From assembly GCA_023667185.1 (NCBI GenBank), contig JAMPAP010000001.1, positions 465,591-529,586 of the forward strand: DNA of 63,996 bases, given 5' to 3'. Both the position numbers and the translations under genes were made by a program. Positions 15,137 to 44,803 of the stretch are shown here, piece by piece. Under the pieces are notes generated by a model. That model was not told the origin of the DNA. It ran no database searches and saw only the letters and a list, made by a program, of their open reading frames with translations. This DNA comes from Lachnoclostridium sp. GTDB taxonomy: Bacteria > Bacteroidota > Bacteroidia > Bacteroidales > Muribaculaceae. The stretch's first letter is position 1. Each line of letters starts with the position of its first letter.

Positions 15137-15360
15137 TTTTAACTGCATTGACATAAATTGGGGGTTTCTGACAACATCGGCGCTCCGCGCCAAAAATTGG
15201 CATTTTGCATTGAAGGGTAAAGCTCGGAATACTCATTAAAAAATAAAATGAGTATCCTCATCTTTACCCTATAAAACAAAAAATGTATAATCGTCATTAC
15301 CAACAACATCGCCTCTCCGAGGCTCAATCGTCTGATTATCAATTCATCCCACGTAAACGA
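15137..15360 (-). repeat. Dispersed hairpin-repeat element, copy 1 (rearranged)
   Basis: In minus orientation it carries two 13-nt hairpin modules with a GGA loop (15179-15191, stem GGCGC/GCGCC; 15311-15323, stem GCCTC/GAGGC), each followed by GATGTTGT. Between them is a stretch related to copy 2: TAGGGTAAA, then GATACTCATTTTAT on the minus strand. The order of the two halves differs from copy 3, so this copy looks rearranged. Confidence 0.75.
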
Positions 15361-15503
15361 AATGCAGTTAAAATAACAAAGACAAAGAGCCTATACGCGC
15401 CTCCTTCGATGCTATCTTGACAGCATAAACATATATGTGGGTTGATCTTACCCCCGGCTGATTTGAGTGTCTTAGCCGTCGGCGTTCGGCACATTTTTCG
15501 CAA

Positions 15504-17414
15504 TTATTTCGGGCAGTCGATGTGGTATTCCCACATTGAGCCGTCTTCGGGGCCGGTGGTGACGATGACAGTTATTACGCTACCTTTGTTGAAGGGGATG
15601 CTGACCGTGGTCTTGGAGCTGACGGCTACCATGCCTGATGACCAGATGGGTGAGCCGTAGGGTTCGCCGGGACGATGGTTGTAGATATCGATACGGTCAG
15701 GGCAAGTGGTGCCTGTTTCGTATGCGAAGTTAAATGTGCCGCTATCCTTGCCCATATTGTAAGATGCAGGAGCAGAGACTGTTCCGGCCTTCACATTGTT
15801 CACTCCCGATCCGCTGGCGTCACACGGGGGGAGCTTGACGGCAAGTGGTATATCACGCTCACGCTGCGGGGCTGTGGAGAGGTATTTGACGTTTTTATCG
15901 CTGACGGAGTAGTCGTTAGGTTCGTAACCTGACTTTGACGCCACGATGGAGATGTTGACATCGTAAGAGAGACCTTTGACGGTGAACTCGCCTGAGCCGG
16001 AGTTGTCGGGCTTATGGATAGTGCCTTCAGAGTCGACAATGCGGAGGGTGCATCCGGGGAGGAGGTTTGACGTACCTGCAACGAGGGTGCGGAATGTAAG
16101 GTCAATGATGCGTGGCCGCATGGGGATCTTCTCGGGCGATGAGAAGGAGGGGATATCAGTATGGCGGGGGTAATATTTGGGGTCGCACTTTGAGTCGATG
16201 ACGATATTGTCGCCCTCGATGGCTTTAACGGGGAAGATGCCGTTGCGGTTGCTCGTCTCGGTGTATTCGGAGGTAGAGCCGTCGATGCTGTGGACTTTGA
16301 TGAGGTTTGTCGCACCGGGTACAGGTTTTCCGGTAATCGAGTCAACATTCTGGAACTCAACGGTAAATGGCTCCGGCTCAAGGTATATCACGCGGCTGCT
16401 GTCAGGCAGTGCGGCAAATTCCATGACGGTGCATTTGCGGTCAAATTCGCCCGGCTTATAGTGGATTTTCGTAGCCTTGAGGGAAAGGTCAGCGAGCACA
16501 AAAGCGTTATCATATCCTCCGCGACCTTTACCGTCGACATTAGTTACGGCACTGCCGCGGGTCACCTTCCCTGAGCCGGTGGTAAGGGTAACTTCTACGG
16601 TTGCCTCAGGTACGGGCTGGCGGGTAAACTTGTTTTTCACAAAGAAGGTAAAGCTCTCCTTCAGAGGAGTCAGCGGTACGACAGCCTCCGAGGGGTCCTT
16701 CTCAGCCTCTATAACATTGATTTCTACGGCGGTAGTGTCCTTGTAGCCGAAGCATGACACGATGTCAAGGTTAATCACTCCGCAATGAGGCGCGGCGGGT
16801 ATCGTGATATGACCGGCAGCGTCAGTGGTGACTTTATCAGTCACCTCTTCACCGCTTACCACATATTTATATATTGTTTCGGCTCCGGCAAGAGGCTCAT
16901 CGGTTTCGCGGTCAGTGACGGTGATGGTCACATCGTCGACAGCGGGCTGCAGGCGTAGCGTGACTTCGCGGGTGTAGTGGAAGTTGTGTTTCTCGGGAGA
17001 ATCTTTCAGGTTATAACACTCATTTCCTGCCAGAAACGAAGCATCGCTTAGAGCGTAGAAAATGTAGGAGAACACGCTGCAGGGGAGGCCGGTGAAGATG
17101 CCGTCACCGTTATCGTCAGTAGTGATGGTGCGGTTGACGGGCTCATTTTTGAGCAGGCGGAAGTCTTTTATAAGATAATGTGCTGTATAGTCGATAGATA
17201 CCTCCGTGGAGGGCACGGGGTCGCCTGAGACGTGGTCGATGGTGTGAACCGTGATGTCACGCTCGCAGCGGATGCAGAGCAGACCCAGAAGCAGCAGCGC
17301 TAATAGCAGCCATAACCACCAAAGGCTTCGTTTCTTTAGTTGGAATTCGTATTCGTCTTGATTATCAGCGAATTTAAATTTTTTAGCGTAGTTGGTGGGC
17401 TTGTATTTATTCAT
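15504..17414 (-). CDS. Membrane-anchored tandem beta-sandwich protein of unknown function
   Basis: 636 residues. A short basic cytoplasmic N-terminus precedes one membrane span (about 31-48, LWWLWLLLALLLLGLL), then about five repeated beta-sandwich units resembling Cna-B/carboxypeptidase-regulatory folds, each opening with a strand plus a (G/E)xPVPxA-type turn (for example VSGDPVPSTEVSI, FTRQPVPEATVEV, ITGKPVPGATNLI), and a distinct C-terminal domain (about 540-636, with TCPDRIDIYNHRPG). No signal peptidase site, so it should stay in the inner membrane facing the periplasm. It starts 11 nt after apbE and likely belongs to the ruvB-apbE transcript. I do not recognise a function. Confidence 0.7.
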   Translation of the reverse strand: MNKYKPTNYAKKFKFADNQDEYEFQLKKRSLWWLWLLLALLLLGLLCIRCERDITVHTIDHVSGDPVPSTEVSIDYTAHYLIKDFRLLKNEPVNRTITTDDNGDGIFTGLPCSVFSYIFYALSDASFLAGNECYNLKDSPEKHNFHYTREVTLRLQPAVDDVTITVTDRETDEPLAGAETIYKYVVSGEEVTDKVTTDAAGHITIPAAPHCGVINLDIVSCFGYKDTTAVEINVIEAEKDPSEAVVPLTPLKESFTFFVKNKFTRQPVPEATVEVTLTTGSGKVTRGSAVTNVDGKGRGGYDNAFVLADLSLKATKIHYKPGEFDRKCTVMEFAALPDSSRVIYLEPEPFTVEFQNVDSITGKPVPGATNLIKVHSIDGSTSEYTETSNRNGIFPVKAIEGDNIVIDSKCDPKYYPRHTDIPSFSSPEKIPMRPRIIDLTFRTLVAGTSNLLPGCTLRIVDSEGTIHKPDNSGSGEFTVKGLSYDVNISIVASKSGYEPNDYSVSDKNVKYLSTAPQRERDIPLAVKLPPCDASGSGVNNVKAGTVSAPASYNMGKDSGTFNFAYETGTTCPDRIDIYNHRPGEPYGSPIWSSGMVAVSSKTTVSIPFNKGSVITVIVTTGPEDGSMWEYHIDCPK

Positions 17415-17425
17415 GGTATTGATGA

Positions 17426-18400
17426 TTATTTTTCAGGGAAAGATGATGTTGTTACCACCGTCAGGTCAGGGAGGATGAGCATGGCATGGGCATCCGGGAG
17501 AGCTTCGATCATCTTAAGAGCAGAGTCGGGCTCCATAGCCATGCAAGAGGTGGCCAGAGCGTCGGCCATCATGGCTGAGGGAGCGATCACCGTAGCCGAG
17601 AGAATGTGTGCGGGAGCCGGACGGCCGGTGACGGAATTAATTGTGTGCCAGGTGGTTGCTGAGTCGGTAACATGGAAGTTGCGGTAATTTCCGGAGGTGG
17701 CTACGCCCCCCTCGCCGGGTGTGATCACCGTCATCCCCCGGCGGACGAGCGCTGTATCAGGTCGCTCAACCATTATACGCCACTGGTTGTGGTGAGGGTT
17801 AAGACCTGAAAGTGCTATCTCGCCCCCTATTTCTATCATATAGTCAGTGACTCCATTGCGGCGGAGCGTTTCAGCCACGGCATCGCAGCCGAAACCTTTT
17901 GTGATGGCCGAGAAATTAAATTCAGTCAGCGGGTGCTTCTTGATGATGTAGCCGAGAGTGTCGATGCGGCAGTCAGCAATGCCCACAAGGCAGAGCATCG
18001 AGTCGATTTCCTCATCTGACGGAGTGCCCGAGCCGTTGCGGTAGCCGAACCCCCAGGCATTGATCAGAGGCGCTACCGTAGGGTCAAAGGCACCAGCCGA
18101 CGCACGGTTAACCTCCTGTGAAGCAAGAAATATACGCCTTACCAGTGAATCGGCCGGGACGGAATCGCCGCGGTTGATGCGCGAGATTGTCGACGACTCG
18201 TTGAATGGCGAAAGCGAAAGCTCCACGCGCTTCATGGCGGCGCGGATGGAATCGTCAAGCGAGACGGGAGAATTGTAGACTATACGGAACGTAGTGTTCC
18301 ACACACCCCCTTCGTAGGTGCGGTAATTATCGTGCCGGCAGCCGGTCAGCAGTATTGACACGGACAATGCCGTGAGGATGATGGAAAGAAACTGTTTCAT
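17426..18400 (-). CDS. apbE: FAD:protein FMN transferase, lipoprotein
   Basis: 324 residues. Signal peptide with lipobox LLTGC (lipid-modified C21). It attaches FMN covalently to threonine of target flavoproteins such as Nqr/Rnf subunits in the periplasm. The family segments are visible: [24 protein letters not shown] N-part, [55 protein letters not shown], and the Mg-binding [10 protein letters not shown]. The start overlaps the ruvB stop by 4 nt (ATGA), so translation is coupled to ruvB. No Nqr/Rnf genes are in the window. Confidence 0.92.
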
Positions 18401-44131: not shown

Positions 44132-44377
44132 ATGATACTCAACGACCGCATTACATATCACGAGCGCCAGGCATTCCCATCCAATGTCTACGGCCTACCC
44201 GAGCGCCGGGAATATCCCATGCCCGATGCCGCCCACGTACGCGCTGCCGAATCATATTTCCGCTACTGTCCGGAAGAGTTAAAACCACGCCTGGCCCGCG
44301 CCATTCTGGCCCGTGCCCATGAATATGGCGTTGATGTCCAGAGCCCTACCGTGCTGACTTACGCTTCCATGCGTTAA
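44132..44377 (+). CDS. Small conserved protein with YGLPxRRxYPMPD-type motif
   Basis: 81 residues. The core VYGLPERREYPMPDAAHVRAAESYFRYC resembles a short domain seen in phage-associated and other small proteins (YxLPxxRxYPxPDxxHVRxA); the remainder is helical. No export signal. Starts 12 nt after the outer-membrane protein stop. Function not known. Confidence 0.65.
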   Translation: MILNDRITYHERQAFPSNVYGLPERREYPMPDAAHVRAAESYFRYCPEELKPRLARAILARAHEYGVDVQSPTVLTYASMR

Positions 44378-44424
44378 CGAAGTAATAATAACATCGAAAA
44401 GACGCCGAATGTTAGTGTAATGTA

Positions 44425-44696
44425 GGTGTTGCAAAACTAATATCAGGCGCGGAGCGCCATCGTTGTCTTTAACCCCACATTTATGTGGGGTAGGCTGATA
44501 ATCAATTAATTGAGCCTCGGAGAGGCGATGTTGTGGTAATGAAATAGCCGTTACCACAACATCGGCTCTCCGAGCCTCAGTATCAAGCAGATAGCCATGG
44601 CCCCACATAAATGTGGGGTTTCTTCGCTAAGGCGAAGCGCTAAAGCGATGACCGACAACGACGGCCCTCCGGGCCTGAGAATAGTTTTGCAACACC
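44425..44696. repeat. 272-bp palindromic hairpin-repeat element with 15-bp terminal repeats, copy 3
   Basis: Ends GGTGTTGCAAAACTA (44425-44439) and its exact reverse complement (44682-44696). Inside are a plus half with GGA-loop hairpins at 44446-44458 and 44514-44526, and a mirror-image minus half with hairpins at 44564-44576 and 44663-44675. CCCCACAT/ATGTGGGG palindromes sit at 44473-44490 and 44601-44618. No coding potential. Confidence 0.85.
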
Positions 44697-44713
44697 CTCT
44701 TTCGCGCTAACTT

Positions 44714-44803
44714 AACAGCATTGACGTAAACGTGGGGTTTCTTTGCTAAAACAAAGCGCTAAAGCGATAACTGACAATCTCGGCGCTCCGCGCCTCACTC
44801 GGA
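44714..44803 (-). repeat. Partial dispersed hairpin-repeat unit
   Basis: Minus orientation, beginning near AACAGCATTGACG and containing the GGA-loop hairpin at 44782-44794 (stem GGCGC/GCGCC, followed on the minus strand by GAGATTGTC). It shares the CGTAAACGTGGGG and CGCTAAAGCGATAACTGAC parts with copy 2. A further degraded piece continues to about 44860. No gene lies between 44378 and 44860. Confidence 0.7.

Follow-up and report, generated by a model that had tools for sequence, protein, structure and literature searches.

A probably mobile, REPIN-like family of hairpin modules with Y1 transposase genes in a Muribaculaceae genome

Repetitive extragenic palindromes (REPs) arranged as REPINs or BIMEs, together with the RAYT transposase (TnpA_REP), were reportedly described by Bertels and Rainey in 2011. 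Passages of PMC8266576 portray such systems as many short intergenic palindromes in inverted doublets, accompanied by a Y1/HUH transposase gene that is flanked by the same palindromes, with stems that differ between genomes. These features are shared by a family of hairpin modules in a 63,996-nt stretch of contig JAMPAP010000001.1 (assembly GCA_023667185.1), the whole of which is called the window below. CGTC REPs and TIRYT genes, which in parts of Di Nocera 2013 (PMC3733652) are palindromic repeats in Bacteroidetes among other phyla and Y1 genes with inverted repeats, respectively, are likewise similar, but the CGTC repeats are said there to have no dedicated transposase. TnpA subclass 1.2 is defined by the motif Y---Q--HH and occurs mostly in Bacteroidetes and Cyanobacteria; the passages of Quentin et al. 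2018 (PMC6006769) that deal with it list no REP for it and say that it lacks insertion sequence (IS) properties. Judged from sequence comparison, the family described here is real, REPIN-like and probably mobile, with a transposase gene within the same modules.

An earlier note on this DNA had listed nine 13-nt hairpins, and all nine are found exactly where it placed them (Table 1), each with a perfect 5-bp stem and a GGA/TCC loop. The stems GGCGC, GGCCC, GCCTC and GGCTC and the linked palindromes (CCCCACGT.. and CCCCACAT..) are also as it described them. The flank that it assigned to the set, which in reverse complement reads ACAACATC or ACAAC[GT]AC, is present at eight of the nine hairpins, the one at 44782 having the variant ACAATCTC. 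A tenth GGA/TCC hairpin (40666), without the flank, lies within the open reading frame (ORF) 40643-42697. GGA/TCC is the most frequent triloop class both in the window (10; runner-up 7) and in a 464-kb sample of the contig consisting of C11:1-400000 and the window (67; runner-up 29). The genome-wide search for copies that the earlier note had suggested returns many: the hairpin-plus-flank pattern ACAACATCG.C.CTCCG.G.C, with at most three mismatches, has 75+71 = 146 matches in the 2.29-Mb genome, compared with 1+1 = 2 for the reversed pattern used as control. A 13-nt hairpin is short, and such palindromes might arise by chance or from base composition without a common origin. This explanation is rejected on the nine confirmed sites and the excess over the control, and the conserved flanks, spacing and layout also argue against it; its probability is negligible.

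The repeats lie between genes. All 21 module clusters with at least two matches, taken from 41 clusters in all (the others are single, mostly weak matches), show 0% overlap with ORFs of at least 150 aa, which make up 88% of that DNA. The invariably intergenic position in the DNA examined, the stable folds and the roles with which REPs elsewhere are credited in parts of PMC8266576 and PMC3733652 would suit hairpins retained for a role in RNA or regulation, as a terminator, an attenuator or an mRNA stabiliser, rather than for movement. However, an Rfam search of the window at the gathering score gives two tRNAs only and no hairpin match, a terminator- or sigma-70-like site is absent from 44380-44860, gene orientations are mixed in 16 of 16 clusters tested (5 convergent, 3 divergent and 8 co-directional), and the module is absent at an orthologous site of relatives, as described below. 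Such a function is very improbable as the explanation of the family, and the hairpins may have a secondary regulatory role.

The hairpins are sub-parts of larger units with inverted ends, a point that the earlier note had missed. A module runs outer hairpin, palindrome, inner hairpin (O-P-I), and these roles are fixed across the 464-kb sample. The inner hairpin has the flank TACCACAACATC, of which variants occur, a stem GCCTC or GGCTC, and then mostly TCA; the outer hairpin has a flank of the type GACAACGAC and a stem GGCGC, GGCCC or GGCTC; the palindrome P between them is CCCCACGT..ACGTGGGG or CCCCACAT..ATGTGGGG. The units, ~220-270 bp long, occur as complete symmetric units of ~240-270 bp, as half units and as mosaics. 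The complete unit has the layout T1-O-P-I-I'-P'-O'-T1', in which the inverted T1 ends are GGTGTTGCAAAACTA.., whereas the half unit is a single O-P-I bounded by other inverted ends (T2); T3 ends are found in mosaics. With the gene, the layout is O-P-I-[Y1 gene]-I'-P'-O', and in the common form a ~21-nt linker replaces the gene. Folded in silico as single-stranded DNA, the complete unit forms one long hairpin (-102.7 kcal/mol versus -35.1 for shuffles, z -17.5), as is expected from its inverted halves. Unlike REPINs and BIMEs, each half contains two different hairpins plus a palindrome, and the gene can be central in the unit.

The HUH/Y1 gene for which the earlier note had advised looking is present among the elements: at E 0.001, PF01797 (Y1_Tnp) is matched twice in the genome, both times among these repeats. 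One gene (L022, C11:345277-345609) is enclosed by the inner hairpins of a full O-P-I layout that has T3 ends, and one of these two inner stems contains a mismatch; the other (L021, C23:13205-13543) is intact and encodes 147 aa from its Met. Both exceed the cut-off of the IS200/IS605 model NF033573. Unlike RAYT proteins, they fall below the RAYT model cut-off (L022 reaches 19.5 bits on NF047646, where 80 is required, and L021 is not listed), and canonical RAYT identity was rejected. All 18 of the proteins that were aligned have both HUH histidines, the tyrosine, the glutamine and the HH pair. The tyrosine motif Y---Q--HH, as in TnpA subclass 1.2, is present in 43 of 47 readable Y1 ORFs, both genes of this genome included; the HUH form of these 43 has D in 29 and N in 14 (the subclass form is DH[IV]H), and the two own genes have NHVH. 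An AlphaFold2 model of the same-genus homologue L166 (32-row alignment, mean predicted local distance difference test score 87.8) has the IS608 and ISDra2 TnpA-DNA complexes as its best PDB matches (E 1.6e-8), and matches the RAYT structure 4er8 at E 1.8e-5; the predicted fold of this homologue is that of a Y1 transposase.

The enzyme resembles those of IS200/IS605 elements (IS608, ISDra2) in its PF01797/NF033573 match, its invariant HUH and tyrosine residues and its predicted fold, and the units resemble these elements in having hairpins at both ends and no visible target duplication. However, the hairpins here are mutually inverted rather than placed in non-inverted subterminal left and right ends (LE/RE), and the gene is rare, whereas gene-less units are many. 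With subclass 1.2, as far as the passages of PMC6006769 portray it, the genes share Y---Q--HH, a length of ~147 aa, occurrence in Bacteroidetes and a low gene copy number. In contrast to that published account, 52 of the 83 such genes examined here have matching hairpins on either side.

These 83 genes come from two sets of Y1 loci across Bacteroidales. In the first, 51 loci gave 47 readable ORFs, 43 with Y---Q--HH and 42 with both flanks at least 60 nt long. The second began with 52 loci, of which 4 with the same protein and 7 without the motif were removed to leave 41; a contig scan with one protein query had given no Y1 loci, and four closer query sequences gave the 52. A match means that a hairpin arm is common to the upstream and the downstream 350 nt of the Y1 gene. 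By this measure, 28 of 42 loci in the first set have matching hairpins on the two sides of the gene (permuted mean 2.0, maximum 8 in 1000); the controls give 2 of 2000 at random own-genome positions and 0 of 281 away from Y1. In the second set, 24 of 41 loci have them (permuted mean 3.2, maximum 9; control 2 of 689). When loops are required to be exact reverse complements, 17 of 42 and 14 of 41 loci are left, the permuted means being 0.17 and 1.42. The 52 matched loci have 33 different loop-proximal arms. Unlike in REPINs and BIMEs, the tetramer GT[AG]G occurs at none of the 208 feet (104 on the 5' and 104 on the 3' side), and CGTC at only 6 of them. These counts rule out membership of the GTAG- or CGTC-tagged REPs, and the loops are mostly 3 nt long here as against 4-5 nt in the CGTC repeats in the parts of PMC3733652 concerned. 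The working principle is that of REP/RAYT, but the transposase subclass and the tag are different and the architecture is doubled and nested.

Stems also change in pairs between species. Because hairpin-finding itself favours paired stems, units were also selected by the flank and the TCC loop only; some of the relatives' loci in this set had been obtained via the flank and others as carriers of Y1 genes. Perfect stems are present in 60 of 102 distinct 27-mers and in 12 of 46 distinct 13-mers, the latter against a mean of 0.70 (maximum 5) over 2000 shufflings of the 3' arms. This excess supports the selection on the folded form that had been proposed earlier. With the layout unchanged, genome G001 has, among the matches listed, the other stems GGGCT, GCCGC, GTGCC and GCAGC, the last with an A-A mismatch in the middle of the stem, and its palindromes include CCGCGGGT..GCCCGCGG. 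In G041, which belongs to another genus, the pattern matches number 34+40 against 8+2 for the control (L116-L135), and the matches listed include the stems GTCGC and GCCAC, again with the layout unchanged. At a Y1 locus of G010 (L060) the order is O-P-I-Y1-I'-P'-O', the stems are GAGGGC and CAACCGC, and the palindrome is CCCCACGAA..TTCGTGGGG. Among 27 genomes, GGGCT units occur in two only (G001, 10; G005, 12) and GTGCC units in three only (G001, 8; G005, 19; G018, 24), and the reversed pattern gives 0 in both cases. Y1 genes with these stems on both sides are found in G005 (L053, GGGCT) and G018 (L058, GTGCC), and none was seen at the two Y1 loci of G001 that were read (L039, L052). L053 and L056, both from G005, encode Y1 proteins that are 76% identical and have different flanking stems (GGGCT and GCCGC, respectively).

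The complete unit of the window has a second copy at C11:371862-372133, with 271 of 272 bases identical and unrelated flanks. The half unit lies between a gene of the altronate/galactarate dehydratase type and uxaC, and these two genes are on one contig in 21 of 26 same-genus genomes searched. In all 21, the gap between the gene matches is 2-182 bp, compared with 287 bp here, so that by gap length the module is absent; of 11 intergenic stretches (42-180 bp) read at this locus in relatives, none has a flank-plus-hairpin match, and some contain unrelated stem-loops. The moving unit appears to be the composite module and not the 13-nt hairpin. The clear inverted ends, the exact 272-bp length and the existence of three different end types are also compatible with ordinary miniature inverted-repeat transposable elements, in which a DDE transposase would act on the terminal inverted repeats T1, T2 and T3 and the hairpins and the Y1 gene would be passengers. 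However, the target-site duplication expected of such elements is not seen, as there is no direct repeat of at least 4 nt within 4 nt of the unit ends at five T1 units examined. A pair of T1 ends 0.6-3 kb apart, and with it a longer element with T1 ends, is absent from the 464 kb to which this search extended. Moreover, one hairpin core is common to different ends, and hairpins match at Y1 genes order-wide. A DDE-driven origin is unlikely.

The best explanation, and a likely one, is that the repeats are REPIN-like non-autonomous units that are moved in trans by a Y1 enzyme of the Y---Q--HH type through recognition of the hairpins. The enzyme would be made from an intact copy and would bind the hairpins where the DNA is single-stranded, as it is for instance during replication; it would then cut at the unit ends, the unit would be pasted elsewhere in trans without target duplication, and selection would leave the copies that lie between genes. 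This explanation draws on the architecture, the copy number, the Y1 genes among the elements, the stems common to Y1 flanks and dispersed copies in several genomes, the paired stem replacement, the near-identical unit at two places and the one locus without the module in relatives. The term REP/REPIN-like used in the earlier note holds for the type of repeat, with short, extragenic palindromes in high copy number and in inverted doublets and a Y1 gene present. It does not extend to the enzyme, which is not a canonical RAYT, nor apparently to the moving unit.

Several observations weigh against movement by such an enzyme. In L022, the Y1 frame is interrupted by a stop at codon 5, and for the intact L021 gene the closest matching hairpins are of opposite polarity. 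The inverted unit ends differ from the IS200/IS605 arrangement. By the arm criterion, 31 of 83 Y1 loci have no matching hairpin. The foot AYRA.ATY does not vary within the genus, but order-wide it is present at only 13 of 104 feet, compared with 1 of 104 on the opposite side. Units are numerous in G041, but its 98%-complete draft gives no Y1 match at E 0.001. The correlation between stem and protein distance is weak (Mantel test, r 0.117; 94 of 2000 permutations as high), which suggests that stems turn over fast or that the choice of cognate hairpin is noisy. Of three empty-site comparisons, two (window 43300-45800 and L007) give no information, since relatives do not have the flanking genes side by side.

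A broader idea is put forward tentatively and is rather less probable than its opposite. The Y---Q--HH Y1 enzymes across Bacteroidales might represent a widespread, unrecognised hairpin-addressed transposition, with a quickly swappable stem code for each enzyme and with symmetric units of inverted ends and nested double hairpins moved whole, perhaps via capture of a folded-back strand. This whole-unit topology is not described for HUH transposases in the literature consulted, and no report of such repeats in Muribaculaceae or Duncaniella, or of REPs of subclass 1.2, was found in titles and abstracts of open-licence PMC articles. The family bears on how REPINs spread and how a transposase tells its own hairpins from others. 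Many enzyme-hairpin pairs in one bacterial order, some of them in one genome with the stem changed, provide a natural series for a recognition code. If hairpin-directed movement is true, a transposase subclass that has been described without REPs or IS properties would gain a likely role. At one locus, a unit stands between two genes that lie close together in relatives, and as the units are lineage-specific, they could serve as strain markers.

Table 1. Units, hairpins and palindromes of the family in the window
Feature	Position	Strand
Complete symmetric unit T1-O-P-I-I'-P'-O'-T1', 272 bp	44425..44696	none
Half unit O-P-I bounded by inverted T2 ends; relatives' site empty	34801..35019	-
Mosaic with T3 and T2 ends and two hairpins; intact palindrome absent	15128..15428	none
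Partial module with Z stem, outer hairpin and T3 end, next to complete unit	44744..44822	+
Hairpin GGCGC/TCC/GCGCC, flank ACAACATC	15179..15191	+
Inner-type hairpin GCCTC/TCC/GAGGC, flank ACAACATC	15311..15323	+
Outer hairpin GGCGC/TCC/GCGCC, flank ACAACTAC	34846..34858	-
Inner hairpin GCCTC/TCC/GAGGC, flank ACAACATC	34945..34957	-
Outer hairpin GGCGC/TCC/GCGCC, flank ACAACGAT	44446..44458	-
Inner hairpin GCCTC/TCC/GAGGC, flank ACAACATC	44514..44526	-
Inner hairpin GGCTC/TCC/GAGCC, flank ACAACATC	44564..44576	+
Outer hairpin GGCCC/TCC/GGGCC, flank ACAACGAC	44663..44675	+
Outer-type hairpin GGCGC/TCC/GCGCC, variant flank ACAATCTC	44782..44794	+
Palindrome P CCCCACGTTTACGTGGGG	34903..34920	none
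Palindrome P CCCCACATTTATGTGGGG	44473..44490	none
Palindrome P' CCCCACATAAATGTGGGG	44601..44618	none

Other features lie close to the units. Degenerate heptamer arrays (AACTAACAACTAAAAACTA..) directly adjoin several of them, at 35020-35070 in the window and at L011, L012, L014 and L022. A family of hairpins with GTA/TAC loops (TAACGGCCGGCTCTACGAGCC, GGGTCGTAGACCC) is found near the units at L013 and L021, and in G060, from another family, TAC-loop hairpins of the form ATAATATCGCCTCTACGAGGC adjoin the Y1 gene. The genes that flank the complete unit L007 (C11:151180-154200) are separated by 11-12 kb in G001, G005 and G018, where their relative orientation is also reversed, as would be seen if an inversion had ended at the unit. 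Upstream of the mosaic element (window 14776-14955) is a tandem pair of tRNA genes whose model scores are identical. Finally, an unrelated palindromic element of ~165 bp (AGAGCCTGTCCCATAATAAATG..) occupies 43378-43546 of the window; a 130-bp piece of it has a 100% match on C42 of the same genome, and ~30 matching pieces are present in G003.

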